From Caulobacter sp. X (GTDB lineage Bacteria; Pseudomonadota; Alphaproteobacteria; Caulobacterales; Caulobacteraceae): 64,000 nucleotides of DNA. Positions 14,416 through 49,041 of the stretch are shown one piece after another. The stretch is taken from contig NZ_PEGF01000001.1 in the NCBI RefSeq assembly GCF_002742635.1, positions 930,001-994,000 of the forward strand, in the 5' to 3' direction. The notes below the pieces were generated by a model. The model did not search any database. It saw only the letters and a list, made by a program, of their open reading frames with translations, and had not been told where the DNA came from. How positions within the stretch are numbered: the stretch's first letter is position 1; each line of letters opens with the position of its first letter. A program made the translations under genes and the position numbers.

Positions 14416-15729
14416 CTACATCTGGGTGAGGGTGAAAATCAGCAGCAGCGAGAGCAGCAGCGCGAACGAGAAGACGCTCATGAACCAGACGACCAGCGTC
14501 TTGAAGATCGCGCCCACGATGGTCGAGCCGTAGCCGCCACGCAGGGTCTGGAACAGGTTGATGGGCGTCCAGAAGGTGATGATGACGCCCCAGATCCCCG
14601 CCAGGGGCATCGGCAACACCATCATGATCGCATTGGTCAGGAACGAGAAAGACAGCAGGTTGGTCGCCACCAGCAGGTGGTCGTAGATGTAGAACTGTCG
14701 GCGGTTCACATAGACGAGGGCCAGGCTCAGCCCGATGATCGGCAGCAGCAGCACCGCCAAGCGGTGGGCCCAGCCGAACATTACGACCATATAGTACTCA
14801 GGATTGGCCACGGCCTTGGCCAGGCCCTCCTTGAACCGCTGGCCCATGCCAGACTTTCCGGAGTGCCCGCCGAGATCGACATCGGCCTTGAACGCCTTGT
14901 GGTTCTCGGCGCCCGGCGTCACCACGTTGAAGTGTTGCCCGCCGATATCAGCCTCGCCGATCTTCTGAGTGTCTTCGTCGATCTTGTCCAACCTTTGCAG
15001 GTCGATCCCGCGGATGGTTTGAGCGACGTCCTCGCCGCGTTTCTCGATCTGCGCCTTGGCTTCCGCGGCGGCGTTGGGGTTCTTTTCCAGCGCGTCCGCC
15101 TCGGCGAGCTTGGCGGCGTAGCGGTCTTGAGCCTTCTTGGCCTTCTCGTCGTGCTTGGCGATGATCGCGGCCTTGTCAGCGCCGGGCTCCTTGAGCGCCT
15201 CATCGCGCTCTTCCGCCGCGTCTTTCAGGCGGCTGTCGCGCGTTTCCGACGCGTCCTTACGCATCTCGTCCGCCTTGGCCTTCCGGCCGGCGGGCGTGGC
15301 GAGGGCGGCGACTTCCCGCTCCTCCTTCAGCTCGACCTCGTGGCGAATCTTATGAATCGCGTGCTCGGCCGCGAAGATGAACAACAGCAGGGCGACCAGG
15401 AAGGTCCGGAACGGCGGCACGTGCCGCGCGATGCGGCCTTCCATATAGTCCTTGGCCAGCTTGCCAGGCTTGAAGAACAGCAGCGGCAGGGTGTTGGCCA
15501 GGCGGCCATCGAGGTGGAACATCCCCTCGATGGCCTCCCAGATCAGATGCAGGATCGACCGGTGGTGAGTGTCGGCGTTCTGGCCGCAGTTATAGCAGTA
15601 CCAGCCCTCCAACGGCGTGCCGCAGTTCTTGCAGGGCTCTCCCTTGTGGGTGAACGGCTTTTTCTTGGCCCCGGCGAAACCTCCCGCCGAGTCCGCCGCC
15701 GCAGCTTCCAATTCCGCGCCTGTGACCAC
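14416..15729 (-). CDS. DUF3667 zinc-ribbon membrane protein with long coiled coil
   Basis: A 437-residue protein. A C-x-x-C...C-x-x-C zinc ribbon (about 33-52, C-K-N-C and C-Y-N-C) is followed by the DUF3667 core (H-L-D-G-R-L...L-F-F-K-P-G-K-L). One hydrophobic helix lies near 110-125, then a charged Lys/Glu/Ala-rich coiled-coil stretch of about 150 residues (roughly 130-285), and three or four C-terminal membrane helices. Function is unknown. It ends 8 bases before the start of liuD and follows liuC by 23 bases, so it is co-transcribed with leucine-degradation genes although nothing in it suggests an enzyme. Confidence 0.8.
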   Translation of the reverse strand: MVTGAELEAAAADSAGGFAGAKKKPFTHKGEPCKNCGTPLEGWYCYNCGQNADTHHRSILHLIWEAIEGMFHLDGRLANTLPLLFFKPGKLAKDYMEGRIARHVPPFRTFLVALLLFIFAAEHAIHKIRHEVELKEEREVAALATPAGRKAKADEMRKDASETRDSRLKDAAEERDEALKEPGADKAAIIAKHDEKAKKAQDRYAAKLAEADALEKNPNAAAEAKAQIEKRGEDVAQTIRGIDLQRLDKIDEDTQKIGEADIGGQHFNVVTPGAENHKAFKADVDLGGHSGKSGMGQRFKEGLAKAVANPEYYMVVMFGWAHRLAVLLLPIIGLSLALVYVNRRQFYIYDHLLVATNLLSFSFLTNAIMMVLPMPLAGIWGVIITFWTPINLFQTLRGGYGSTIVGAIFKTLVVWFMSVFSFALLLSLLLIFTLTQM

Positions 15730-15752
15730 GCCCCACGTCCCCCTGGTTGAGT

Positions 15753-16592
15753 CTATTCAGCCCAGGAGGGTTTACGACGCGCGAGGAAGGCGCGCACGCC
15801 TTCTTGTCCTTCTTCGGAGACACGGCGACGCGCGATGCGGCGCGCGGTCTCTTCGACCAGGCCTCTGTCGAGTTTCTGACCAGCGAAGTCGTTGACCAGG
15901 GCCTTGGCGTCGCCGATCGCGCCGGGGGCGCAGGGAACCATCTCCTCGATCAGAGCGTCACGGGCGGCCTCAAGGCCGGCGACGTCGTCGAACACCTCGT
16001 CGACCAGGCCGTAGCTCCAGGCCGCGTCGGCGTCGAAGACGCGGGCGGTCGCGAACAGCAGCTTGGCCGTACGCGGCCCAAGGGCCGCGATGACGTACGG
16101 GCTGATGGTGGCGGGCGTCAGGCCCAGCTTGACCTCGGAGAACGAGAACTTGGCGTCCGCCGTCGCCAGGGCGTGGTCGCAGGCCGCCACCAGGCCCGCG
16201 CCGCCGCCATAGGCCGCGCCTTCCACCAGGGCCACGGTCAAGGCCGGGATGTCGTGCAGGGCCTTCAGCATATGGGCCAGTTCGAGCGCATCCTCGCGGT
16301 TGTCGTCCTCGTCCCACTCGACAGCGTCGGCCATCCAGGAAAGGTCCGCGCCAGCGCTGAACGTTCCGGCCACGCCGCGCAGGAACACCACGCGTACGCC
16401 CTCGGCCCCGTGCAGGGTCTCGAAGGTCTGGCGCAGGGCCGCGATGGTCGCCGCGTCGAAGGCGTTCTTCTTGTCGGGACGGTTGATCCAGACGGTGACC
16501 GCGCCCTCGGGCGTGCTCTCCATGTGGACCAGCGGGCTCATCGCGTCGGTGTCTTGGACCTCGACGATGGGATCGGCGATGGGATTGGTCAT
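15753..16592 (-). CDS. liuC: Enoyl-CoA hydratase family, probable methylglutaconyl-CoA hydratase
   Basis: A 279-residue crotonase-fold enzyme, expected to hydrate 3-methylglutaconyl-CoA to HMG-CoA in leucine catabolism. Seen: N-R-P-D-K-K-N-A-F-D, the oxyanion-hole segment F-S-A-G-A-D-L-S-W-M, and A-A-Y-G-G-G-A-G-L-V-A-A-C-D with a catalytic glutamate position later (F-S-E-V-K-L-G-L). The D-L-x-W-M sequence is typical of LiuC-type proteins. The ATG at 16592 has AAAGGAG seven bases upstream. It lies 20 bases after liuB in the operon. Confidence 0.9.
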   Translation of the reverse strand: MTNPIADPIVEVQDTDAMSPLVHMESTPEGAVTVWINRPDKKNAFDAATIAALRQTFETLHGAEGVRVVFLRGVAGTFSAGADLSWMADAVEWDEDDNREDALELAHMLKALHDIPALTVALVEGAAYGGGAGLVAACDHALATADAKFSFSEVKLGLTPATISPYVIAALGPRTAKLLFATARVFDADAAWSYGLVDEVFDDVAGLEAARDALIEEMVPCAPGAIGDAKALVNDFAGQKLDRGLVEETARRIARRRVSEEGQEGVRAFLARRKPSWAE

Positions 16593-16612
16593 GGGGCTAC
16601 TCCTTTGGGACG

Positions 16613-18205
16613 CTACATCCGGAAAACGCCGAAGGTCGTCTCCGGGATAGGGGCGTTGAGACTGGCCGAGATTGCAAGCCCCAGAACGTCCCGCGTTTGA
16701 GCCGGGTCAATGATCCCGTCATCCCATAGCCGCGCCGTGGCGTGGTAGGGGTTGCCCTCATCTTCGTAGCGCTGGCGGATCGGCGCCTTGAAGGCCTCGG
16801 CCTCCTCGGGCGTCCACTTGGCCGCGTCGCGGTGGACGGTGGCCAGCACGCTGGCGGCCTGCTCGCCGCCCATCACCGAGATGCGGCTGTTCGGCCAGGT
16901 GAACAGGAAGCGCGGGCTGTAGGCCCGGCCGCACATCCCGTAGTTACCCGCGCCGAAGCTGCCGCCGATCAGCACGGTGAACTTCGGCACCTCGGCCGAG
17001 GCGACGGCGGTGACCAGCTTGGCGCCGTCCTTGGCGATGCCGCCGGCCTCGTACTTGCCGCCGACCATGAAGCCCGAGATGTTCTGCAGGAAAACCAGCG
17101 GGACCTTGCGCTTGCAGGCCAGCTCGATGAAGTGCGCGCCCTTCACGGCGCTCTCGCTGAACAGCACGCCGTTGTTGGCCAGGATCGCCACCGGCTGTCC
17201 CCAGATGCGGGCGAAGCCGCAGACCAGGGTCTTTCCGTACAGGGCCTTGAACTCGTCGAACCTTGAGCCGTCGACGATGCGGGCGATGACCTCGCGCACG
17301 TCGTAAGGCGCGCGGACGTCCGTCGGGACGATGCCGTAGAGCTCCTGGGGGTCGTAAAGCGGCGGTTCGGCGTCGGCCAGGACCACCTGCTCCGGCTTGG
17401 TCGTGTTCAGATTGGCGACGATCGCGCGGACAATCTCCAGCGCATGCTCGTCGTTCTCGGCGACATGGTCGACCACGCCCGAGCGGCGACCATGGGTCTC
17501 GGCCCCGCCCAGTTCCTCGGCGCTGATCACCTCGCCCGTCGCGGCCTTCACCAGCGGCGGGCCGGCCAGGAAGATGGTGCCCTGGTTGCGGACGATCACC
17601 GTCTCGTCGCTCATCGCCGGGACATAGGCGCCGCCGGCGGTGCACGAGCCCATAACGCAAGCGATCTGCGGAATGCCCGCCGCGCTCATCCGCGCCTGGT
17701 TGAAGAAGATGCGGCCGAAGTGGTCGCGGTCGGGGAAGACCTCGGCCTGGTGCGGCAGGTTCGCGCCGCCGCTGTCGACCAGATAGACGCAAGGCAGATG
17801 GTTCTGAGCCGCGATCTCCTGAGCGCGCAGATGCTTCTTCACCGTCATCGGGAAGTAGGCGCCGCCCTTCACCGTGGCGTCGTTGGCGACGATCATCACC
17901 TCGCGGCCCGACACCCGGCCGACCCCGCAGATGATCCCCGCCCCCGGCGCCTCGCCGCCATAGAGGTCGCAGGCGGCCAGTTGGCCGATCTCCAGGAAGG
18001 GCGAACCGGGATCCAGCAGGCGCTCGACCCGCTCGCGGGGCAGCAGCTTGCCGCGCGAGGCGTGGCGCTCGCGGGCGCTCTCCGGACCGCCCAGGGCCGC
18101 CTCGGCCACCTTGGCGCGAAGTTCGGCGACCAGGGCGCGATTGTGCGCGGCGTTGCGGGCGAAGGCGTCGTTGGACGCGTCGATAACGGAGTTCAACTTC
18201 GGCAT
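16613..18205 (-). CDS. liuB: 3-methylcrotonyl-CoA carboxylase, carboxyltransferase beta subunit
   Basis: A 530-residue carboxyltransferase with two crotonase-like halves. It carries the signature [16 protein letters not shown], two glycine loops for CoA/oxyanion binding ([12 protein letters not shown] and [15 protein letters not shown]), and the E-E-L-G-G-A-x-x-H segment. Length and the Y-G-M-C-G-R-A-Y-x-P-R-F-L-F-x-W-P motif fit MccB better than PccB. It is the first gene of the leftward operon liuB-liuC-DUF3667-liuD. About 200 bp upstream (18206-18405) separate it from the divergent patatin gene; I see no clear regulator site there. Confidence 0.93.
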
Positions 18206-18405
18206 GACCGACGCTTAGCCTTTTCCACCCATCCCCGGAAGTCGGAGTTTTTTGGACCCCGAAGCCGAAGATTCAGAGCCAAAACCGTTCTTAGACATTT
18301 TATCTTCCAGAGCAATGATTGCGCCTGAACGCGTGCTCGGGGTCAAGCCTGCCGATCGCGCGAGGCCGTTTACAGCTTCGCCCTGGCGGCACTACGGTCC
18401 GCGCC

Positions 18406-20169
18406 GTGGAAACGCCCCTGCCTGATGACTCGGCCCTAGCGCGCCTGTTCGCCCGCGAGCGGCGAAACGGGACGGCGGCGTGGTTCTCGTTGCCAGGCGG
18501 CGCGACGCTGTTCGAGCCGGGCGAAGCGGCCGACCAGCTCTATTTCCTGAAGACCGGCCGCTTGGGCGCTTTCCGCCGCGAACCCGGCCAGGAGCCGCAG
18601 TTCCTGGGGCTGATCCGCCCAGGCGAACCCGCCGGCGAGATGGCCATGATCGGCGACACCGCCCACTCCGCCAGCATGGTCGCTCTGCGTGACAGCGAGA
18701 TGCTGGCCATGCCCCGCGATGTCTTCTTCGAGGCGGCCGAGGAGGATCCCAGCGTCCTGCTGGAGCTTTCGCGGCTGATGATCCATCGGGCGCGGCAGGC
18801 CCGAAGCCAGCCGGCCGTGGGCGATCCGTCGGTGTTCGGCTTCATCGCCGTCGAGCCCGGCGCGCCCATCCGGCCGATCGTCGAACGCCTGGGCCGCTGT
18901 ATCGAGAACCTGGGCTACACGGTCACGGTCGAGGGCGGCGAGGCGCTGCTGGCCCCGACCGAGTGGTTCGGCAATGTCGAGTACGCTCACGACTTCGTCC
19001 TCTATGTCGCCGAGGCCGACGAGACCGCCTGGAAGCACGTGGTCGGCCGGCAGGTGGACCGGCTGTTCCGCGTTGGGCGCGGCGACCGCCCGCCGCCGAC
19101 CGTGATCCCCAGCTACGCTTCGGGACCCCTGCAGGCCCAGCGCCTGGTCGACCTGATCCTGCTGCAGTCGGCCAGCCTTGTTCGCCCCAGCGGCTCGGAG
19201 GCCTGGGTCGCCGCGACCCAGCCCGCGCGCCTCTTCCATCTGCGCGAAAACGGCGTGGCCGACCTTCAACGGCTGGCGCGGGTGATGACCGGACAGTCCG
19301 TCGGCCTAGTCCTCTCCGGCGGCGGCGCGCGGGCGTACGCCCACATCGGCGCGATCCAGGCGATGCGCGAGCGGGCCATTCCGATCGACTTCGTCGGCGG
19401 CGCCTCGATGGGCGCGATCATCGCCGCGGGCCTGGCCATGGGCTGGGACGACGGTGAGATGGAGGCGCGCATCCAAAAGGCCTTTGTCGACTCCAGCCCC
19501 TTGGACGACATCGCCTTTCCCATGATCGCCATGACACGCGGCGAAAAGGTCAGGGCGCGCCTGGAAGAGCATTTCAGCGGCGTCGAGATCAGCGATCTCT
19601 GGCTGCCGTTCTTCTGCGTCTCGTCGAACCTAACCTCGGGGGCCTACCAACTGCATCGCACGGGCGAGCTGCAGGCGGCTCTGCGCGCCTCGATCGCTTT
19701 GCCCGGCGTCATGCCGCCGGCCACCGCCAACGGCTCGGTGCTGGTCGACGGGGCGGTGATGAAGAACTTCCCCGCCGACGTCATGCGCGCGCTCCAGCCT
19801 GGTCCGATCGTCGGCGTCGACGTCACGCGCGGCCGCAGCATCACCCCGGACGATATCGTCACCCCGCCTTCCCTCTGGAACTGGATCACCTCGGGCGAGT
19901 GGCGACGCGGTCCGCCGATCGTGGCCCTGCTGATGCGGGCGGCCACGGTCACCTCCGGCCGCGACATCACCGCCGCGCGCGAGGCCACCGACGTCCTGAT
20001 CACGCCGAAGCTGGAAGGGGTCGACATCCGCGACTGGCGCGCTTTCGAGCCTTCCGTGAAGGCCGGGCGCGTCGCCGCCGGCTTCGCGCTGGACACCCTG
20101 CGCCAGCCCGTGACGACGCTGCGTCGCCGCCTGAGCCTGCGCGAACGCCAAGCCGCCTCAGGTCGCTGA
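18406..20169 (+). CDS. Patatin-like phospholipase with N-terminal cyclic-nucleotide-binding domain
   Basis: A 587-residue protein. Residues about 25-150 form a cNMP-binding/Crp-type sensor domain (F-E-P-G-E-A-A-D-Q-L-Y-F-L-K-T-G-R-L-G, later P-G-E-x-x-G-E-M-A-M-I-G). A linker follows, then a patatin domain from about 300 with oxyanion loop S-G-G-G-A-R-A-Y, nucleophile G-A-S-M-G near 333 and catalytic Asp in D-G-A near 448. The architecture resembles eukaryotic NTE/PNPLA6 and bacterial YchK/RssA-type esterases. The GTG at 18406 is chosen because similarity begins there; an upstream TTG (18319) is in frame. Its end overlaps the convergent methyltransferase by 12 bases. Confidence 0.88.
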   Translation: METPLPDDSALARLFARERRNGTAAWFSLPGGATLFEPGEAADQLYFLKTGRLGAFRREPGQEPQFLGLIRPGEPAGEMAMIGDTAHSASMVALRDSEMLAMPRDVFFEAAEEDPSVLLELSRLMIHRARQARSQPAVGDPSVFGFIAVEPGAPIRPIVERLGRCIENLGYTVTVEGGEALLAPTEWFGNVEYAHDFVLYVAEADETAWKHVVGRQVDRLFRVGRGDRPPPTVIPSYASGPLQAQRLVDLILLQSASLVRPSGSEAWVAATQPARLFHLRENGVADLQRLARVMTGQSVGLVLSGGGARAYAHIGAIQAMRERAIPIDFVGGASMGAIIAAGLAMGWDDGEMEARIQKAFVDSSPLDDIAFPMIAMTRGEKVRARLEEHFSGVEISDLWLPFFCVSSNLTSGAYQLHRTGELQAALRASIALPGVMPPATANGSVLVDGAVMKNFPADVMRALQPGPIVGVDVTRGRSITPDDIVTPPSLWNWITSGEWRRGPPIVALLMRAATVTSGRDITAAREATDVLITPKLEGVDIRDWRAFEPSVKAGRVAAGFALDTLRQPVTTLRRRLSLRERQAASGR

Positions 20170-20937
20170 CCGGCGAGCCACAATAAATAGGCGCTTGAAG
20201 GGAAACAGGGTCACGCCGTCCTCCCGACGCGGAAACCGTCGCGCCAGTCGAGCGCGCCAAGCGTCCAGGAACAGCGACTTCTCCCCATCATCCAGCGCGT
20301 CGAGATAGGGGCGCAGGGTGGCGCCCATCGTCCACTCGACGATCGGATCCTCGCCGCGCAGCGCGTGCAGATAGGTGGTGGTCCAGATGTCGATCTCGGC
20401 GCACAGCGGCGCCAGCCAGCCATAATAGTCCTCGGGCGACGCTGTCGGGCCAGCGCCGGCGATGTTCGCCAGCTTGGCGGCCCAGGTCCCCACCTGGATG
20501 ACCTCGGCCAGGCTGCCGCGCCAGCCCAGGCTATCGACCACCGGGACCTGAACCGCCAGGACGCCCGACGGCGCCAAGGCGGCCGCGAGGCGCGGGATCA
20601 ACATCCTATGATCGTTCACCCAGTGGAGAGCGGCGTTGGTGAAGATCAGATCGGCGGGCGCGTCCGGGGCGAAGCCTTCGATGCCGCCCTCGATCCATTC
20701 CACCTGATCGGACAGCGCCCGGGCCCGTCGCAGCATCTCCGGGCTGGAGTCCAGGCCGCGCACGCGCGCCAGCGGAAAGCGCTCGGCCAGCAAGGCCGCC
20801 TGCTCGCCCATGCCGCAGCCGAGGTCCCAGATTTCGCGCGGCGCCATATCGGCGGGCAACATCGCCATGAGGTCTTGAGCCGGCCGCTCGCGGTATCGGC
20901 GGTAGAGGGCGTAGATGTCCGGATCCCAGCGCGCCAT
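20158..20937 (-). CDS. tam: Trans-aconitate 2-methyltransferase-like SAM methyltransferase
   Basis: A 259-residue class I methyltransferase. The Tam-like start W-D-P-D-I-Y-A-L-Y-R-R-Y-R-E-R-P-A-Q-D-L, the SAM loop D-L-G-C-G-M-G-E-Q, the acidic ribose site G-L-D-S-S-P-E-M, and F-T-N-A-A-L-H-W-V match E. coli Tam in order. Tam esterifies trans-aconitate, a spontaneous by-product that inhibits aconitase. Cytosolic and single-gene. A W-T-T-T-Y segment and P-Y-L-D-A-L near the C-terminus also fit. Confidence 0.85.
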   Translation of the reverse strand: MARWDPDIYALYRRYRERPAQDLMAMLPADMAPREIWDLGCGMGEQAALLAERFPLARVRGLDSSPEMLRRARALSDQVEWIEGGIEGFAPDAPADLIFTNAALHWVNDHRMLIPRLAAALAPSGVLAVQVPVVDSLGWRGSLAEVIQVGTWAAKLANIAGAGPTASPEDYYGWLAPLCAEIDIWTTTYLHALRGEDPIVEWTMGATLRPYLDALDDGEKSLFLDAWRARLARRFPRREDGVTLFPFKRLFIVARRSAT

Positions 20938-20988
20938 TCTATCCCTCCCCGGTGCGACAATCCGACACCGTGCAACTTCGTCGTCTGT

Positions 20989-21000
20989 GAAGAATTCTTC
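20989..21000. repeat. 12-bp perfect palindrome GAAGAATTCTTC
   Basis: GAAGAATTCTTC at 20989-21000 is followed by a similar GAAGAAGATTC at 21006-21016. It lies between tam (start 20937, leftward) and the small gene at 21076 (rightward), so it may be an operator for either. The composition is unusually A/T-rich for this genome. Confidence 0.4.
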
Positions 21001-21075
21001 TCAACGAAGAAGATTCATCATACTGTTCGAAATAGACCTCCGACAGAGGGGCCACAGGGAAGGAATTCACGCGGA

Positions 21076-21225
21076 ATGGTCACGCAGATTCATCTGGCTC
21101 CGGGCGGCGCGCCCGCCCCGGCCCCGAACGTCCGTCGACTGAACCTTAGCCGCCCCCTGGCGGTTGGCGCCGCCGTGGCGATGTGGGCTCTGATCCTGAT
21201 CGGCCTTCGCCTGCTTACGCTCTGA
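21076..21225 (+). CDS. 49-residue predicted single-pass membrane protein
   Basis: Begins with ATG at 21076; AAGGA about 12 bases upstream is a weak ribosome binding site. The first 27 residues are proline/alanine-rich and soluble, followed by one hydrophobic helix (V-G-A-A-V-A-M-W-A-L-I-L-I-G-L-R-L-L) at the C-terminus. This is a tail-anchored layout. No family is recognised. It sits in a 540-bp gap otherwise occupied by the small transcript at 21301-21476, and it could be a chance reading frame. Confidence 0.4.
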   Translation: MVTQIHLAPGGAPAPAPNVRRLNLSRPLAVGAAVAMWALILIGLRLLTL

Positions 21226-21305
21226 CCGCGACCTCGGGTCGCGTTAGGCGCCTCTTCCCATCCCGGCGGAAAGGCCCATATCCTCCTTGTGTTGTTCAAC
21301 TACTG

Positions 21306-21319
21306 AAAGGAGGTGATCC
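21306..21319 (+). promoter_or_regulatory. 14-base Shine-Dalgarno sequence, full complement of the 16S rRNA 3' tail
   Basis: AAAGGAGGTGATCC is the exact complement of the last 14 bases usual for bacterial 16S rRNA (GGATCACCTCCTTT). Normal sites pair with 4-7 bases. It is one base upstream of a GTG codon at 21321 (8 bases from GGAGG), so it fits a translation start for the peptide below. Confidence 0.75.
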
Positions 21320-21320
21320 A

Positions 21321-21389
21321 GTGTCTCATTGTCTCCAACCGCGGTCGCAAGTCGTGACCTGGAGCCTGAAGAACGAGGTCTCCGCCTAG
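21321..21389 (+). CDS. 22-residue peptide with extreme ribosome binding site
   Basis: Reads from GTG (21321) to TAG (21387-21389) and begins MSHCLQPRSQ and ends LKNEVSA; it is polar, with two basic residues and no membrane segment. The evidence for translation is the 14-base Shine-Dalgarno sequence. The stop codon lies inside a hairpin (21385-21406), and a strong terminator follows at 21446-21476, so the peptide appears to be the only coding content of a transcript of about 180 bases. I recognise no family. It could be a leader peptide, a ribosome-titrating RNA, or an independent small protein. Confidence 0.55.
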   Translation: MSHCLQPRSQVVTWSLKNEVSA

Positions 21390-21445
21390 GGTGTTGAGCA
21401 CCTAGGTTTCAAGTCACACGCTGCGAACAGCGGCTACGACGATGG

Positions 21446-21476
21446 AAGGGCCGTTCCAGCCGGGACGGCCCTTTTT
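21446..21476 (+). terminator. Rho-independent terminator of the small transcript
   Basis: 9-bp stem AAGGGCCGT/ACGGCCCTT (21446-21454 with 21465-21473), 10-base loop and a run of five T (21472-21476). It also lies just past the end of the leftward dehydrogenase gene, but the T tract follows only on the plus strand. Confidence 0.88.
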
Positions 21477-21483
21477 CATGACT

Positions 21484-22641
21484 TCAGGCGCCGATCAGTT
21501 CGCGCCCGATCAGGAAGCGGCGAATTTCGTTTGTGCCGGCGCCGATGTCGTAGAGCTTGGCGTCGCGCAGCAGGCGCTCGACCGGCCATTCCTTGGTGTA
21601 GCCGGCGCCGCCCAGGGCCTGGATCGCCTCCAGCGACACCTTCACGGCGTTCTCGGACGCCATCAGGATCGCGCCGGCCGCGTCGAAGCGCGTGGTCTTG
21701 CCGGCGTCGCAAGCCCGCGCCACGGCGTAGACATAGGCCCGCGCCGAGTTCAGAGCCACGTACATGTCGGCGATCTTGCCCTGCATCAGCTGGAAGCCGC
21801 CGATCGGCTGGCCGAACTGCTTGCGGTCGCGGACATAGGGCAGGACGATGTCGAGGCAGGCCTGCATGATGCCCAGCGGCCCCGCCGCCAGCACGGCGCG
21901 CTCGTAGTCGAGACCGCTCATCAGCACGCCGACGCCGCCGCCGACCGGGCCCATCACGTTCTCTTCCGGGATCTCGCAGTCCTCGAACACCAACTCGGCG
22001 GTGTCGGACCCGCGCATGCCCATCTTGTCCAGCTTCTTGGAGACGCTGAAGCCCTTCATGCCCTTCTCGACCAGGAAGGCGGTGATGCCGCGGCTGCCCT
22101 CCCCCGTCTTGGCGTAGACGACCAAGGTGTCGGCGTGCGGAGCGTTGGTGATCCAGAACTTCGTGCCGTTCAGGACATAGCGATCGCCGCGCTGCTCGGC
22201 GCGCAGCTTCATCGACACGACGTCCGAGCCCGCCCCCGCCTCGCTCATGGCCAGGGAGCCGACATGCTCGCCGCTGATCAGCTTGGGCAGGTAGCGCCGC
22301 TTCTGTTCGGGCGTGCCCCAGCGGCGGATTTGGTTCACGCAGAGGTTCGAGTGGGCGCCATACGACAGGCCCACGGAGGCCGAGGCGCGGGACACCTCCT
22401 CCATCGCCACCACGTGCTCGAGGTAACCGAGGCCCAGGCCGCCGAACTCCTCCTCGACCGTGACGCCGTGCAGGCCAAGGTCGCCCATCGGGACCCAGAG
22501 CGAGCGGGGGAAGGTGTTGGTTTCGTCGATCTCGGCGGCCAGCGGCGCGATGCGGTCGGCGGCGAAGCGGGCGGTCGTCTCGCGGATGGCGTCGGCGGTC
22601 TCGCCCAACGCGAAGTCCATCGTGGGTGCGAAATTCGTCAT
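21484..22641 (-). CDS. liuA: Isovaleryl-CoA dehydrogenase
   Basis: A 385-residue FAD-dependent acyl-CoA dehydrogenase that converts isovaleryl-CoA to 3-methylcrotonyl-CoA, the substrate of LiuB/LiuD encoded at 12450-18205. Seen: [32 protein letters not shown]-x-A-D, and the catalytic glutamate region [11 protein letters not shown]. That position (in the middle of the protein) is typical of isovaleryl-CoA and long-chain types rather than butyryl-CoA dehydrogenase. The ATG at 22641 has GGGAGGA eight bases upstream. Confidence 0.92.
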
Positions 22642-22661
22642 GATAGTCCTCCCATAGCACG

Positions 22662-22694
22662 AACGCCCGCGGATCAACGAGACCCGCGGGCGTT
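22662..22694 (-). terminator. Hairpin after the lysozyme-like gene
   Basis: Perfect 11-bp stem AACGCCCGCGG/CCGCGGGCGTT (22662-22672 with 22684-22694) and an 11-base loop, between the GH24 gene stop (22727) and the liuA start (22641). There is no T tract, so it may instead shape the liuA leader. Confidence 0.55.
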
Positions 22695-22726
22695 CTTGCT
22701 CGACTTCCCCAGAGTAAGGGAAGTTC

Positions 22727-23965
22727 TTATTCGCCCGCCTTATCCGGCCCGGCCAGTCGGCGCAACAGAAGATAAGCCGAAACCACGAAGCAGATGGCGC
22801 CAATCATACTGGCGCCATAGCCGAACAGCCTGACCTGATCAGCCGCCCCGACCGCCACGGTCAGGATCCACAGGACGCCGCCGCCGAACAGAAAAAGTCC
22901 GAGCAGGCCCAGGATGATCAATAGGCTGGCGTTGCCGGAAGAGCGCTTCGTCTTCCGCGGACCGCCCGCGACCCCGGCGACGGGCGAAGGCTCAACCGCC
23001 GCGCTGGTCGAGAAGCCGTCAAGATTGAAGGCCGAGCCGCCATCCGTCGACACGCCAAACAACGTAGGCTCGTTAGCGACCGGACCGGGCGAAAAGGCTT
23101 CGACCGAAGCCGTCTTGTCGGAAGACTGAGGCGGGGGACGGAAGGGCGTCAGCTCAACGGGCGCGTCTTGGAACAAGACGGGCCCCGATGAGGCGCTGGC
23201 GGCCTTCTCCGGCGCGGGCGGCTCGGGCAGGCTAAGATCCGGCTGAGCCTTGCTGGGCGGCGCTTCCGCCTCGGCGAGGATCGCTTCCAGGCGCGCGCTG
23301 ACGGCGGCGGCCGACTGCTCCGTCGCGGTGGGCCTGTCCTCTTCCGGGACAACGATGCTGAACGGCAGGTCGCCCTCGCGGTGGGCGACGATCCGGTCGC
23401 CGTCCGTGCGGGTGCTGACCGTGGCGGGCGTCTGCTTGGGGATCGCGTTGCTTGCGTCATAGTCGATCTTGGGACGCAGGATCGGGCTGGGCGCGGGCAC
23501 CCACTGGCCGTTGGCCGGGGTCAGGAACAGCGTCTTCTCGGCCGAGCGGCGGCGGACCAGGGCGTCGATCACAATGCGCTCGCCCTCGAAGTCGGCCTTG
23601 CGCCACATCTCCATGGCGCAGGCGGCTTGCAGCAACGAGCCCTCGTTGATCCGGCGCAGCACGCCCGAGCGCACGAAGTTCTCGATGCCGATGTTGAAGG
23701 CGAAGCAGACCAGGGCGTCGAACTGGTTCTGGGTCAGGGGCGTGTAGGTGTGCTCGTTGACCGAGTGGGCCACCGAGATCAGGTCGTACAGCAGCAGGGC
23801 CTCGGCGTCCTTTTCCGAGACAGTCGCGCCCGGACGCGCGGTCAGCGTGTGGCCATAGCCGATCGTCCAGCGTCCATCGGGCAGCTGGGCGGACGTCTGA
23901 CGGTAGCCTTCGAATCTCTTGATGAGATCGACGGCGGCGCGGGAGACCTGATGACGCGGTTTCAT
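22727..23965 (-). CDS. GH24 lysozyme-like protein with C-terminal membrane anchor
   Basis: A 412-residue protein. Residues 1-150 form a phage-lysozyme-type (GH24) domain: L-I-K-R-F-E19-[11 protein letters not shown] around 33-40, and [17 protein letters not shown]. The catalytic Glu and the Thr of W-T-I-G-Y-G are kept. The usual Asp nine residues after Glu is Leu; an Asp is found two residues later (D30). A long, low-complexity Pro/Ala/Glu linker (about 170-320) leads to two C-terminal membrane helices (about 345-365 and 378-400). No signal peptide is seen, which is odd for a muramidase. No other phage genes are nearby. Confidence 0.82.
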
Positions 23966-24060
23966 CGCCTAGTTTGACCCAAATTGAGACAGACGCGGGT
24001 GCGCTCGCCTGTCCCGGCGCAAGGACCGCGCCAGTTTTCCCTATCTAGGCGATCAACGGC

Positions 24061-25503
24061 TCATTGCATCAGCAGCGCCGCGATCAGCAGCACCGCGAAG
24101 AAGCCCATGAAGTCGGTCAGGAAGGTGACGAAGATCGACGACGAGACCGCCGGGTCGCGGCCCATCTTCTCCAGGGCCAGAGGCGCCAGGATGCCGCCCA
24201 GGGCGGCCGTGAAGATGTTGGCGATCAGCGCCGCGCCCACCGTGATGGCCAGCTTGGCGTTGTGGTAGAAGAAGAACGTCGCCATGCCCATGACCAACGC
24301 AAGACATATGCCGTTGGTCAGGCCGACCAGGACCTCGCGCACGATGATGCGCCGGGCGTTGGCCGCGGTCAGCTCCTTGCTGGCCAGGGCGCGGACGGCC
24401 ACGGCCAGGGTCTGGGTGCCGGCGTTGCCGCCCAGCGACGAGACGATCGGCATCAGCACCGCCAGCGCCACCAGCTTGGCGATCTGATCCTGGAAGATGG
24501 CGATGGCGCTGACCGCGATGGTCTCGGTGACCAGGTTCAGCAGCAGCCACGGCAGGCGCGAGCGGACGATCTCCTGGACGCTGGCGTCGCGGCCGGCGTC
24601 GGACACACCGGCCAGGGCCAGGATGTCTTCCTGGGCTTCGTCACGAATGACCTCGACGATGTCGTCGACGGTGATCTGCCCGACCAGGCGCCCGCCCGGC
24701 TCGATCACCGGGGCGCTGATCAGGTGGTACTTGTCGAAGATATAGGCGACCTCTTCCTGGTCCATGTCGACTGGGATTTCGGTGACCGCCTCCATCAGCT
24801 CGGCCAGCGGCGTCTCGCGGCGGCTGCGGAGCAGGATGCTGATCGGGATGGCGCCGACGGGCTTGTAGGTCGGATCGACGACGTAGACGTCGAAGAAGAG
24901 CTCGGGCAGCGACTCGCCCGCCTCGCGGACGTGGTCGATTGTCTGGCCGACGGTCCAGAATTCCGGCGCGGCCAGAAATTCCCGCTGCATCAGGCGGCCG
25001 GCGGTCTCGTCCTCATAGGACAGGGTCGTCTCGATCGCGGCGCGGTCGGTCTCGCCCATGGCGGCCAGCACCTGGAACCGCTTGGTGTCGTCCAGGTCGT
25101 CGATGACGTCGGCGGCGTCGTCGGTGTCCAGCTCCTCCAGCGCGCGGGCCAGGGTCACCGACGGGGTGGCCTCCAGCACCTCTTCGCGGATGTTGTCCTC
25201 GAGCTCGGAGATGATCTCGCCCAGCGCCTCGGGATCGAGCAGCGGGATGATCTGCTCGCGATAGTCGGCGGTCAGGAAGCCCATCAGGTCGGCGACGTCG
25301 GCCGGGTCCAGGGCGCCGACCAGCTCGCGCAGGCGCTTGCCATCGCCGCTGTCGGCGGCGTCGACCACCATCTCGACATATTCGGGATTGAGGGCGTAGT
25401 CCTCGCCAAGGGCCAGGTCTTCCAGCTCCTCGGGGGTCTCGGACTTGGCCAGCGGGATGTCGTCCAGCACGTCGTCGGTCAGTTCGGCGGTGTCCCGGGT
25501 CAT
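24061..25503 (-). CDS. mgtE: Magnesium transporter MgtE
   Basis: A 480-residue Mg2+ channel of the MgtE family. The cytosolic N domain (about 45-165; G-A-L-D-P-A-D-V-A-D-L) is followed by two CBS domains (about 165-290, with P-V-G-A-I-P-I-S-I-L-L and L-V-G-Q-I-T-V-D-D-I-V) and five membrane helices from about 315 to the end, including the pore signature G-N-A-G-T-Q. The CBS/N domains close the pore at high Mg2+. It is a single gene with a long leader before the tRNA gene. Confidence 0.94.
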   Translation of the reverse strand: MTRDTAELTDDVLDDIPLAKSETPEELEDLALGEDYALNPEYVEMVVDAADSGDGKRLRELVGALDPADVADLMGFLTADYREQIIPLLDPEALGEIISELEDNIREEVLEATPSVTLARALEELDTDDAADVIDDLDDTKRFQVLAAMGETDRAAIETTLSYEDETAGRLMQREFLAAPEFWTVGQTIDHVREAGESLPELFFDVYVVDPTYKPVGAIPISILLRSRRETPLAELMEAVTEIPVDMDQEEVAYIFDKYHLISAPVIEPGGRLVGQITVDDIVEVIRDEAQEDILALAGVSDAGRDASVQEIVRSRLPWLLLNLVTETIAVSAIAIFQDQIAKLVALAVLMPIVSSLGGNAGTQTLAVAVRALASKELTAANARRIIVREVLVGLTNGICLALVMGMATFFFYHNAKLAITVGAALIANIFTAALGGILAPLALEKMGRDPAVSSSIFVTFLTDFMGFFAVLLIAALLMQ

Positions 25504-25591
25504 GGGGGCCTCCTGAGCTCTGAGAGCGCGTTGGGTTCGTTTGGCTGGTCCGATGCGGCGACCCTGAGGCGAAATCAGGGCCCAAAACGAT

Positions 25592-25638
25592 TAGAGCGCC
25601 CCTTGCGAGTCGGAAACCGATTTCGCCGGAGCGCTCTA
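25592..25638 (-). terminator. Terminator of tRNA-Leu(GAG)
   Basis: Outer stem TAGAGCGC/GCGCTCTA (25592-25599 with 25631-25638), with a shorter imperfect inner stem. On the minus strand it is followed after four bases by TTTT. It lies 12 bases past the tRNA 3' end and upstream of mgtE. A smaller hairpin (CCCTGA/TCAGGG, near 25562-25580) follows it in the mgtE leader. Confidence 0.6.
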
Positions 25639-25650
25639 TTCAGGTTCACC

Positions 25651-25735
25651 TGGTGCGGTCGAGAAGACTCGAACTTCCACGGGTTGCCCCACAGCGACCT
25701 CAACGCTGCGCGTCTACCAATTCCGCCACGACCGC
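25651..25735 (-). tRNA. tRNA-Leu (anticodon GAG)
   Basis: 85 bases including encoded CCA. The 7-bp acceptor stem GCGGTCG/CGACCGC, D-arm G-G-A-A-T-T-G-G-T-A-G-A-C, anticodon stem CAGCG/CGCTG around loop TTGAGGT (anticodon GAG), a long class II variable arm, and the T-arm with GTTCGAGTC are all present. The GAG anticodon reads CTC and CTT leucine codons. Confidence 0.97.
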
Positions 25736-25821
25736 TCGTGGTGAGGGGCGGCAGGTAGCAAACTGAATCGGCTTTGGGAAGTCGGAAGTTTCGCGACGAG
25801 CGAAACCGATGGGGGCGGATG

Positions 25822-26097
25822 CTACGCCCCGCCCGCCATGTAGTCGTAGACGTCGGCCGCGCGGGTCACCTGGATGGCGATGCGGTCGTCGCTGATCTGG
25901 ATTTCGCCGCGGGCGATCGGGTGGTTGTTGGCCAGGATCCAGACCTCGTCATTGGTCTTGGCGTCCAGCGGGATCACGGCGCCACGACCCATGCGCAGCA
26001 ATTGCTGCATCGGCAGGATCGAGCGGCCCAAAAGGACGGAGATCTCGACATTGACGGCGTTGACCTGGGTCACGAAGTAAGGCCCCTGAACTGACAC
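25822..26097 (-). CDS. FliN-like (SpoA-domain) protein
   Basis: A 91-residue protein made almost entirely of one SpoA/SURF1-type domain: V-E-I-S-V-L-L-G-R-S-I-L-P-M-Q-Q-L-L-R-M-G-R-G-A-V-I-P-L-D followed by E-V-W-I-L-A-N-N-H-P-I-A-R-G-E-I. FliN forms the lower C ring of the flagellar motor switch. This copy has no other flagellar gene near it. The longer start (ATG 26133) would leave almost no room for the divergent lipB promoter, so GTG 26097 is preferred; no good ribosome binding site is seen for either. It could be the main FliN or a paralogue. Confidence 0.75.
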   Translation of the reverse strand: MSVQGPYFVTQVNAVNVEISVLLGRSILPMQQLLRMGRGAVIPLDAKTNDEVWILANNHPIARGEIQISDDRIAIQVTRAADVYDYMAGGA

Positions 26098-26190
26098 ACG
26101 CGACCGACCGGGTCGCCGCGTCCAAGATTGCAAGATTAGGGCCGTATGCTTGCGCTCCCGTTAAACGCTGAAAACACTGGACTTCCGACC

Positions 26191-26871
26191 ATGAGGCGCG
26201 ATGACGCAGCTCCTGTCGGGTGGGCGGTTTCGACCGACTACGTAGATTACCCGGCAGCGGTTGCCGCCATGGAGGCGCGCGCCGCCGCCATCGCCGACGG
26301 CGCGGCGGGCGAGCTGGTCTGGCTGCTGGAGCACCCTCCCCTCTACACCGCCGGCGTTTCGGCCAAGGCGACCGACCTGCTGGCGCCAGACCGCTTTCCG
26401 GTGTTCGAGAGCGGGCGCGGCGGGCAATTCACCTATCACGGCCCCGGCCAGCGCGTGGCCTATGTGATGCTCGACCTGACCAAGCGCGGTCGGGATGTGC
26501 GCGCCTTCGTCGCGGCGCTGGAGGCCTGGATCATCGACGCCTTGGCCGCCTTCAACGTCACGGGCGAACTGCGCGATGGCCGCGTCGGCGTCTGGGTCGA
26601 GCGCAAGGGCGCGGGCTGGAGCCGCGAGGACAAGATCGCCGCCATCGGGGTGAAGTTGCGCCGCTGGGTCAGCTTCCACGGGATCAGCCTGAACGTGGAG
26701 CCGGATCTCTCGCACTTCTCGGGCATCGTGCCGTGCGGCCAGACCGAGCACGGCGTGACCAGCCTGGTGGATCTGGGCCTGCCCATCACCATGGACGAGG
26801 CCGATGCGGCGCTGAGGAACAGCTTTACGAAGGTGTTCGGAGCGACCGAGGACGCGGCAGCGCCAGTTTAA
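26191..26871 (+). CDS. lipB: Octanoyltransferase (lipoate biosynthesis)
   Basis: A 226-residue LipB that transfers octanoate from acyl carrier protein to lipoyl domains of 2-oxoacid dehydrogenases and the glycine cleavage H protein; LipA then inserts sulfur. Seen: [12 protein letters not shown], the [13 protein letters not shown] signature, the catalytic lysine in I-A-A-I-G-V-K and the catalytic cysteine in I-V-P-C-G. The ATG at 26191 gives a normal length; an upstream in-frame ATG at 26146 would add 15 residues and crowd the divergent gene. A palindromic repeat follows immediately. Confidence 0.93.
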
Positions 26872-26874
26872 AAT

Positions 26875-27003
26875 CCCTCTCCCGTGGGGAGAGGGCGGGG
26901 CCCATGCGAAGCATGGGAGGGTGAGGGCGTACACCGTCAGCCGCCGAACCCCCTCACCTCCCGCCGCTTCGCGGCGGGTCCCTCCTCTCCCAAGGGAGAG
27001 GGG
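26875..27003. repeat. Composite palindromic intergenic element
   Basis: About 129 bp with terminal inverted repeats CCCTCTCCC (26875-26883) and GGGAGAGGG (near 26994-27002). Inside are nested hairpins: CCCTCTCCC/GGGAGAGGG at 26875-26895, CCCATGC/GCATGGG around 26901-26917, and CCCGCCGC/GCGGCGGG around 26960-26978. A longer pair, GGAGGGTGAGGG near 26917-26928 and CCCCCTCACCTCC near 26949-26961, brings the halves together as a cruciform. It fills the whole gap between lipB and the convergent DUF805 gene. It resembles the REP/MITE-like elements dispersed in alphaproteobacterial genomes and may also terminate transcription. Confidence 0.75.
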
Positions 27004-27006
27004 TTC

Positions 27007-27411
27007 CTAGATCGAAATCGTCTTCAAGGGATTGGGCCCATAACGGTTCGCGCCCTGCTCGCCGCCCATCACGCCCAGCTCGACCACCGCCCAGGCGATG
27101 ACCAGGCAGAACATGAAGTCGAGGAAGTGCTCGGGCTGGGGCCAGACGGCGATGAAGGCCACCAGGATCAGCAGCGCCCACCAGCCCGACCGGCCGCGAT
27201 CGTGCAAGCGCTTCGACAGCACGCAGGCGCCCGAGAACAGCAGGGCCGGATAGACCACCCAGCCCGTCAGCCAGTGAAGGGTGTAGCCGGCGATCGCCTC
27301 ATAGAGGACCGCCACCCCCAGCAGGACCGCCGCCGCGATCAGGAACGGCGTGCGCGCCAGCCGGCCGTTCGACGACAGGAACAGCTCCGCCCACTCGCTA
27401 CGTTCGCTCAT
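27007..27411 (-). CDS. DUF805 family membrane protein
   Basis: A 134-residue protein with the DUF805 layout: a short start, N-G-R-L-A-R-T-P-F-L-I-A-A (compare G-R-x-x-R-x-x-F-W), three to four membrane helices (about 25-42, 52-70, 80-97, 100-118), the K-R-L-H-D-R-G-R-S-G-W-W signature and the end N-R-Y-G-P-N-P-L. Function unknown; inner membrane. It is the second of two adjacent DUF805 genes, 41 bases apart, likely an operon or tandem duplication. Confidence 0.88.
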   Translation of the reverse strand: MSERSEWAELFLSSNGRLARTPFLIAAAVLLGVAVLYEAIAGYTLHWLTGWVVYPALLFSGACVLSKRLHDRGRSGWWALLILVAFIAVWPQPEHFLDFMFCLVIAWAVVELGVMGGEQGANRYGPNPLKTISI

Positions 27412-27452
27412 GCTCGCCCTCTTCGAGTCGGCGCTACGCCGACGCGGGCAAT

Positions 27453-27974
27453 CTAGGCGCTAGCGCTGCCGTCAGGAAGGGCGTCGTCGTCAAACGACAG
27501 TGGTCGGCCCGCATCCGGATTCTTCGGCGAGGGGCCGTAACGATTGCGGCCCGGATCGCCGTCCAGGAAGCCGTAGTCGACGAAGAGAAAAAGCCCCATC
27601 AGGAGCAAGGGAATTCCGAGCACCCATTCGACGATCTGGCCGTAGAGAACCTTGGCCGGCGCGGCGAACAATGCGCCCGTGAAGAGCGCTCCTATGAACG
27701 CGACAGAGACCCACGCCGAGCGCCCTCGGTCATGGCCCCGCTTCACCATCAACGCGAAGCCCGGCCAGAAGAAGACCCACTTCAACGCGAGGGCCACGCC
27801 TTGGGCGGCGGGCGATGTGAAGCCGACCAGACCCATCAAAAGGAAACCTAGAACGACCTGGACGAAATTAAGCGCTATTCCGCCCAACCAGTATTCCGAT
27901 CGCCTGATCCGGCCGTCCAAGCTGATGTAGAGGCTGACCAGCCCCGTGAGGAACGTGTTCGCGCGTTTCGCCAT
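27453..27974 (-). CDS. DUF805 family membrane protein
   Basis: A 173-residue paralogue of the preceding protein: D-G-R-I-R-R-S-E-Y-W-L-G-G, K-R-G-H-D-R-G-R-S-A-W-V and G-R-N-R-Y-G-P-S-P are the family signatures. Four membrane helices are predicted (about 30-50, 60-72, 90-105, 112-128), with a hydrophilic tail of some 35 residues that the neighbour lacks. Function unknown. Confidence 0.88.
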   Translation of the reverse strand: MAKRANTFLTGLVSLYISLDGRIRRSEYWLGGIALNFVQVVLGFLLMGLVGFTSPAAQGVALALKWVFFWPGFALMVKRGHDRGRSAWVSVAFIGALFTGALFAAPAKVLYGQIVEWVLGIPLLLMGLFLFVDYGFLDGDPGRNRYGPSPKNPDAGRPLSFDDDALPDGSASA

Positions 27975-28019
27975 GCCTCACCTAAGCGGAAGCTTGCTCG
28001 AAACGCAACCTGTGGTCGT

Positions 28020-38217: not shown

Positions 38218-38302
38218 TGGTGCGGGCGGTCGGGGTCGAACCGACACTCCTTTCGGAACCGGATTTTGAGTCCGGCGCGTCTACCAGTTTCACCACGCCC
38301 GC
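38218..38302 (-). tRNA. tRNA-Leu (anticodon CAA)
   Basis: 85 bases with encoded CCA (38218-38220). Acceptor GCGGGCG/CGCCCGC, D-loop with A-A-A-C-T-G-G-T-A-G-A-C, anticodon stem CCGGA/TCCGG around CTCAAAA (anticodon CAA), long variable arm, T-arm GTCGGTTCGACCCCGAC. It decodes TTG leucine codons. Confidence 0.97.
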
Positions 38303-48756: not shown

Positions 48757-49041
48757 TCAGGTAATGCGCTTGACGCTGACCGGGTCACTGCCCGGGAAGC
48801 TCTCTTCCAGACCCTCGTCCAGCAAGGCTTCCTGACGGTTTTCAGCCGTCTCGACCTTGGCGGCGAGCTGGTCATGCTTCTCACCCTCGCGGAGCGGTTC
48901 TTCCGCTTCGCGGGCGTGGGGGGCGTCGAACGACTTATCCTCCGGCCGGATCGCCCCCTCCGACGCCATGTCGGCGGTCGATGCGGCGGTGCCGTGGGTA
49001 AAGTGGCGGTCGTCGCCCTTCTGGGTATCGGGTCGGGTCAT
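48757..49041 (-). CDS. Small acidic conserved hypothetical protein
   Basis: A 94-residue hydrophilic protein, low complexity and probably disordered, ending L-L-D-E-G-L-E-E-S-F-P-G-S-D-P-V-S-V. That C-terminal L-D-E-x-L-E-E-S-F-P-x-S-D-P-x-x-V motif recurs in many alphaproteobacterial small proteins I have seen annotated only as hypothetical. No membrane part. ATG 49041. Function unknown. Confidence 0.7.
   Translation of the reverse strand: MTRPDTQKGDDRHFTHGTAASTADMASEGAIRPEDKSFDAPHAREAEEPLREGEKHDQLAAKVETAENRQEALLDEGLEESFPGSDPVSVKRIT

Follow-up and report, generated by a model that had tools for sequence, protein, structure and literature searches.

A Caulobacter member of the CC2171 small RNA family joins an extended Shine-Dalgarno element to a short reading frame whose translation, rather than its peptide, may be the selected feature

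In a 64,000-nucleotide stretch of the Caulobacter sp. X genome (henceforth the window), the segment at 21297-21471 of the plus strand matches the Rfam family RF01867 'CC2171' over model positions 1-159 of 159 (cmscan, 119.8 bits, gathering score 75) and is the only copy of RF01867 in this genome. Our reading, held at a little under even confidence and drawn from sequence comparison, is that of a stand-alone structured small RNA in which translation, and not the peptide, would be the selected feature. Comparison of relatives shows an extended Shine-Dalgarno (SD) element with a near-invariant core, a putative frame of mostly 14 to 30 codons whose stop has a place fixed in each clade and, for RNAs of the present type, a predicted and covarying helix (P1) that runs from codon 3 of the frame to just before the terminator. 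We see strong comparative evidence that the start, the frame and the stop of this RNA are under selection in relatives, and we consider the short frame very probably translated.

CC2171 is reportedly a Caulobacter sRNA, and Landt et al. 2008 is said to be its original paper. Rfam types the RF01867 entry as an sRNA gene and annotates it as non-coding; membership by score stands, and on the comparative evidence the non-coding label does not appear to hold, the frame and its stop being apparently selected. The literature passages searched hold no description of a function for RF01867, and in the same passages we saw neither the frame nor the 16S match of CC2171 described, which leaves room for such a description elsewhere in print. 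The preliminary description of this locus, made from its letters, had known no named family for it; RF01867 now supplies one. Its outline of a separate small RNA gene that has a short frame and a terminator has held, with start and stop apparently under selection in relatives, and the 22-codon frame opened by GTG, the stop codon inside a hairpin and the terminator with its T tract are present as it had them (Table 1).

Table 1. Features of the small RNA locus and its immediate surroundings, in positions of the window.
Feature	Position	Strand	Evidence or remark
Putative -10-like element CATATC	21277..21282	+	weak
Small RNA gene RF01867 (CC2171) plus T tract	21297..21476	+	cmscan 119.8 bits; fold z-score -3.46
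17-nt perfect complement of the 16S rRNA 3' end (extended SD), GAAAGGAGGTGATCCAG	21305..21321	+	
Near-invariant ten-base core of the extended SD, AAAGGAGGTG	21306-21315	+	
22-codon frame VSHCLQPRSQVVTWSLKNEVSA; GTG 21321-21323, stop TAG 21387-21389	21321..21389	+	kept in relatives
P1 5' strand CATTGTC; frame bases 7-13 (codons 3-5), inside the initiation footprint	21327..21333	+	predicted fold, covariation
Hairpin CCTAGGGTGTTGAGCACCTAGG holding the stop codon	21385..21406	+	sequence, predicted fold
P1 3' strand GACGATG, just before the terminator	21438..21444	+	predicted fold, covariation, Rfam consensus structure
Terminator hairpin and T tract	21446..21476	+	12-nt arms 21446-21457 / 21462-21473, 92% complementary
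Convergent acyl-CoA dehydrogenase-like gene, adjoining the RNA and not part of it	21484..22683 (scanned stretch)	-	

A 14-base full complement of the 16S rRNA 3' end had been claimed for AAAGGAGGTGATCC, which indeed lies at 21306-21319 before the GTG at 21321. The match is perfect as claimed, and only its length needed correction: because both 16S genes of this genome end in ...GCGGCTGGATCACCTCCTTTCT, the complement measures 17 nucleotides rather than 14, judged on the 16S gene sequence, from which the mature 16S 3' end may differ. The exact 13-mer AAAGGAGGTGATC occurs in the whole 4.81-Mb genome only at this locus and in the two 16S genes. With up to two mismatches allowed, the element has one match in the window, an exact one, versus 0.22 expected, and its calculated pairing with the 16S tail (-34.6 kcal/mol) is the strongest among 25,592 sampled 22-mers of the window (mean -10.3, standard deviation 3.1). 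The best other site, at 48960 on the minus strand, reaches -30.6 kcal/mol. A chance match to the 16S tail was rejected on the number of matches in the window, the uniqueness in the genome and the pairing energy; an antisense 16S gene was rejected as well, the complement ending after 17 nucleotides and no rRNA family matching in 15000-28000. As given in passages of a C. crescentus study, an SD precedes only 24.6% of its CDSs (PMC4117421), and by this measure the element is exceptional for Caulobacter.

The core of the element scarcely varies. Close relatives had been named as the place to look for frameshifts or for loss of AAAGGAGG; there, the core is kept in 30/30 same-genus copies and in 40/40 further copies from the same family, all of them recovered by the Rfam model, whose span covers the core region, and every one of those 40 model-selected copies keeps a frame of 21-23 codons. 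The 14-base match itself is only partly kept among the 30 same-genus copies, being intact in 9, shortened by a single base in 18 and altered by substitutions in 3, with the changes in its outer part. Across the 40 same-family copies the outer element reads ATCC in 28, GTCC in 6, ACCC in 4, and ACCT and ATCT in one copy each. Since the outer part varies while the core stays, the strict 14-mer is common but not required. The 20-mer AAAGGAGGTGATCCAGTGTC occurs with at most one mismatch in 49 of 387 genomes of the class, at one place each; 30 of these 49 places have a mismatch, and both AAGGAGGTG and TGTC are free of any. In 17 of the 30 the start codon is changed at its first base (to A in 14, to T in 3, to C in 0), and the remaining 13 lie at 20-mer positions 1, 11, 14 and 15. 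In relatives the start codon usually stands 6-7 nucleotides behind the GGAGG of the element.

The hibernation factor RMF masks the 16S tail, and an RNA counterpart of it might serve as a ribosome decoy whose extended SD masks or holds 30S subunits. The strongest sampled complement of the 16S tail in the window, a 13-mer unique apart from the 16S genes and a core present in 40/40 copies would all suit a decoy. We nevertheless regard it as quite unlikely: a pure decoy needs neither an open frame nor a stop codon at a fixed place, and in the predicted folds of the Rhodobacterales group the SD is mostly paired (unpaired 0.23). Ribosome capture was a role offered in the preliminary description; capture without elongation is disfavoured because the position of the stop is kept.

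Within the Caulobacteraceae family the RF01867 model matches at E <= 0.001 in 247 of 299 genomes, and above the cut-off in 178. The 20-mer is found in at least 119 stretches of named genomes, and among the 80 matches listed nearly all are from named alphaproteobacteria or Proteobacteria; a phylum-wide draw, with one mismatch allowed, gave 57 of 168 genomes of the class versus 0 of 228 of other classes. Genomes that lack the 20-mer can still have the RNA, because the Rfam model finds it in 22 of 38 chosen class genomes of this kind, always below the Rfam cut-off; among 40 chosen class genomes, 24 match at E <= 0.001. Eighteen of the 26 places found by the model were parsed directly and eight were looked at separately, and 25 of the 26 have a short frame behind the element, which is interrupted in two of these. 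The eight comprise five with the element and an 18-codon frame, two (L265 and L272) in which an inserted A interrupts the core and the frame was recognised by eye, and one (L274) with the terminator only. Relatives in Rhodobacterales, Bradyrhizobium and other orders fall below the RF01867 threshold: among other-order loci 6 of 19 reach it, and among the further loci 0 of 16, at which no other RNA family was reported either. A Mesorhizobium screen, in the passages at hand, lists RF01867 as MH_s33 (PMC5596092). The 20-mer is also carried by the gammaproteobacterial bins L074 and L100, whose differing 44- and 25-codon frames share GSR[MK]APFY; by eye, a tRNA-like stretch lies close to the 20-mer in L074.

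In none of 253 distinct loci does frame 0, the one behind the element, have a stop before codon 13; its stop lies at codons 13-26 in 240, at codons 27-35 in 9 and later in 4 (L074, L140, L154 and L155), whereas frames +1 and +2 of the same loci stop before codon 13 in 113 and 67. After dereplication to 110 loci, frame 0 has 0 early stops and 107 stops at codons 13-26, versus 32.6 early stops (lowest of 200 runs, 19) and 19.2 at codons 13-26 (highest, 30) in a Markov null; the groups behind this 110-locus test were drawn partly by ORF features, those behind the 253-locus and 40-copy counts were not. Start codons across the 253 loci are GTG in 221, ATG in 31 and TTG in 1. In the search patterns the start codon is followed by TC (a single mismatch being tolerated in two of them) and codon 2 is not free there; CAT as codon 2 occurs in five copies, which were found by the model.

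While the place of the stop is fixed by clade, the codon that fills it alternates, the 40 Rhodobacterales-group loci having TAG in 21, TAA in 11, TGA in 8 and TGG in 0. The lack of TGG at the stop place has p values of ~0.001 in this group, 0.006 in the 30 Caulobacter-group loci and 0.08 in the 10 Bradyrhizobium-group loci, under the assumption that the two bases vary independently and with relatedness ignored. Column permutation of the Rhodobacterales group yields a mean of 35.0 internal stops versus 0 observed, and 0 of 300 permutations give none. This group was defined by its 18-codon frame and its own length statistic is circular, which the pooled counts avoid. One locus runs against selection on the frame: in L027 a TGA replaces Trp at codon 14, leaving 13 codons. 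Among the late-stopping loci, the 20-mer of L140 opens a long, ordinary-looking frame, and that of L154 and L155 (ATG) a frame of 58 or 56 codons whose beginning resembles a signal peptide and which may be a version that has turned into a small secreted protein.

As an ordinary trans-acting non-coding sRNA, as annotated, the RNA would carry its frame incidentally. The Rfam annotation and the covarying helix fit this, and Rfam 15 adds, according to the passage seen, one covarying pair to RF01867 (PMC11701678). We rate it as very unlikely, however, in view of the frame-0 stop statistics and the alternating stop and start codons.

A separate question is whether selection acts on the amino acids. 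The RNA could be a small mRNA for a functional, fast-evolving peptide of 14-30 residues, its structure only tuning expression. Start, frame and stop are kept, and peptides look alike within clades, with VSHC..PRS....TW.LAS.EVRA in the Rhizobiales type and VS[YF].KRCHLAGIAR in Bradyrhizobium. Synonymous change was compared with a column permutation that keeps the diversity of each column and destroys the codons. In four sets of 12-40 distinct sequences this detected no synonymous excess: the synonymous share of the Rhodobacterales group is 0.213 versus 0.184 +- 0.053 permuted, with 87 of 300 permutations reaching the observed value, and the sets of 23, 24 and 25 codons give 0.104 versus 0.111, 0.120 versus 0.111 and 0.109 versus 0.133. 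In these four sets the three codon positions are about equally heterozygous, without an excess at third positions. Two Caulobacter sets do lean towards synonymous change, with third positions the most variable, and count for the peptide: 0.391 versus 0.253 in the 22-codon set of 16 sequences (34/300 permutations) and 0.600 versus 0.233 in the 21-codon set (9/300, five sequences). The test loses power wherever third positions are also constrained by pairing.

Between clades the peptides look unrelated, sharing little beyond the start and a second residue that is mostly Ser (His in five copies), and their recurrent His-Cys falls in the P1 strand, as CATTGT. In L189 a +1 shift behind the start is undone by a -1 shift about 30 nucleotides on, with nine residues changed (by eye). 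Five peptides had no match in Pfam or NCBIfam, on which ground a known peptide family was rejected. We consider a functional peptide improbable on balance, and for the tiny protein that the preliminary description had entertained, conservation in sequence did not show in the larger sets. The comparison suggests instead that the length of the frame and its stop are kept, and the amino acids not visibly so.

The frame also takes part in the predicted fold of the RNA. Support for P1 comes from a single-sequence fold and from covariation: in 148 sequences of this type the fourth base of the 5' strand changes together with its partner. CATAGT is answered by a downstream ACTATG in 8/8 sequences versus 1/140 of the others, CATGGT by ACCATG in 5/6 versus 2/142, and CATTGT by ACAATG in 46/114 (107 with G-U allowed) versus 2/34. 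The Watson-Crick partner of the sequence's own hexamer is present in 69 of the 148 (133 with G-U), versus 40.9 when shuffled (highest, 49). The strict partner of the minor hexamers is found in 1/3 for CATCGT, 1/2 for CATGGA and 0/1 each for CATTAT, CATAGC, CATTCC and CATCGC. The hairpin of the stop codon has one double change at each of two column pairs in alignment A1, 95-108 and 97-106.

The consensus fold of the own genus (29 sequences from 30 Caulobacter-group copies, L011 being dropped as near-identical to L009) did not choose P1; it has a local hairpin instead, which pairs GGAG with CTCC and CAGTG with CATTG and hides the SD and the start. In the Rhodobacterales consensus fold (33 of 40 copies, the others having an unparsed, odd or short 3' end), GGAGGT pairs with ACCTCC near the 3' end. 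Such SD-hiding hairpins, formed instead of or besides P1, would make a switch plausible. Blocking the initiation footprint, which contains the 5' strand of P1, costs 9.6 kcal/mol in the predicted fold. The fraction of frame bases that pair with the part behind the stop is 0.51, 0.45, 0.42 and 0.31 in four groups (predicted folds, no shuffled control), the 0.31 of the largest group being depressed by the inclusion in the folding sets of some sequences cut short at the 3' end. From these fractions, the frame would largely form the 5' arm of a predicted rod, with the stop towards its apex. In types without a P1 of the CATTGTC kind, a mini-hairpin of the type GG(A/G)GCAGCC(U/C)C recurs by eye at or just behind the end of the frame (L225-L227, L235, L237, L238, L266, L268 and Rhodobacterales loci).

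A strict terminator scan listed none at the RNA, which may reflect the pairing of some T-run bases within the stem. A consensus promoter scan found no promoter for the RNA; by eye, most of 28 same-genus copies have a CATAT-like box at the same distance as the -10-like element here.

Both flanking genes, one methyltransferase-like and the other acyl-CoA dehydrogenase-like, lie on the minus strand, and the RNA gene stands alone. In 29 of 30 same-genus loci a relative of the acyl-CoA dehydrogenase-like gene is found 3' of the RNA. The preliminary description was right, as regards the next gene, that none larger comes after the RNA in its own direction; that gene is convergent, and the suggestion of a translation-sensing leader finds no support at this locus. 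Farther along the minus strand are two tRNA-Leu genes, at 25651-25735 and 38218-38302, with anticodons GAG and CAA.

Other clades could nonetheless tell of a leader or attenuator, with the short frame as a sensor of translation and the terminator as the control of a gene behind it, originally that for the ribosome rescue hydrolase ArfB. In 35 of 40 loci of the Rhodobacterales group (L031-L149), and in 7/7 further loci of family f20, an ArfB-like gene is found downstream on the same strand; in 31 of the Rhodobacterales-group loci it is 164-301 nucleotides from the start of the short frame, and some arfB genes start about 12-40 nucleotides behind the T tract. The ArfB-like copy of L078 matches NF006718 at 184.5 bits (cut-off 100). 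Against a leader stand the convergent gene at the Caulobacter sp. X locus, the lack of arfB in the flanks (<1 kb to ~7 kb) of other loci and, in some other clades, a UPF0178-like gene at that place. By eye, -10-like boxes lie close to several arfB starts, which suggests that arfB may have a leaderless promoter of its own. A leader is unlikely in our estimate, and the arfB neighbourhood, remarkable as it is for an RNA of this kind, may be old synteny. A leader acting in cis throughout the class was rejected, the downstream gene not being constant among clades. ArfB is also found no more than 1 kb away in 3/3 loci of Hyphomonadaceae-like type (family name inferred), but upstream and on the opposite strand. 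A queuosine precursor transporter gene lies upstream in 38 of 40 Rhodobacterales-group loci. In L152, L177, L239 and L240 a gene is found 3' of the RNA on the same strand, at about +165 to +200, and in L229 nearby on the other strand; we take it to be UPF0178/DUF188-like.

For a stand-alone RNA selected for its translation, we can sketch how the parts might work together. 30S subunits would bind the extended SD, and a bound ribosome and P1 would be mutually exclusive. The ribosome would then travel the 5' strand of the rod-like fold as far as the stop, towards the apex, and release the 3' strand from its pairing, so that the RNA would have two forms, closed when free of ribosomes and open when loaded. 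The simplest candidates for the consequence are that the change between them sets how stable the RNA is or how available its 3' half becomes to a protein or a second RNA. A ribosome that must travel to a fixed stop would account for a frame that retains its length and punctuation but not, visibly, its amino acids. It is possible, if doubtful, that this is a widespread 'ribosome-gated' alphaproteobacterial RNA, whose 16S-matching element would sense free 30S subunits and in which the number of codons, and not their meaning, would set a switch that reports translation capacity. Passages of the C. crescentus study place most ncRNAs in intergenic regions that, by ribosome profiling, are not translated, which speaks against the translation of this RNA; they also mention two earlier predicted ncRNAs that are translated, unnamed in the text (PMC4117421).

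Translation of the frame would change the description of RF01867 from non-coding to translated, and would link the family with relatives from further orders that score too low for the Rfam threshold. The case would be unusual in that a frame seems to have kept its length and punctuation in evolution, and not its message. Should translation gate the RNA, a relative of the SD-poor C. crescentus would possess a sensor of ribosome supply that is genetically simple.

Set beside known systems, the locus has the 5' element, P1 and terminator of RF01867 CC2171, of which it is a full-length member; it departs from that family as an sRNA gene in its apparently selected reading frame and in having relatives in further orders below the threshold. 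Among dual-function or translated sRNAs, rnTrpL of Sinorhizobium meliloti is likewise a short transcript with a frame, of 14 codons; RNA and translation are both relevant in it, as they may be here, but it is leaderless and corresponds to the trp attenuator, whereas the RNA described here has an extended SD and no same-strand gene behind it; passages of the same source put 33% of 54 unannotated translated sORFs of S. meliloti on annotated sRNAs (PMC10117765). In leader-peptide attenuators, too, the position of a ribosome on a short frame decides the RNA fold, as it would here; they differ in that here no regulated gene follows and the amino acids are not visibly conserved. The extended SD sites described for Staphylococcus aureus likewise combine long SD-anti-SD pairing with a nearby start, also at small frames (PMC13009471), but in a different phylum, whereas the present element belongs to a relative of C. 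crescentus, with its sparse use of SD sequences (PMC4117421).
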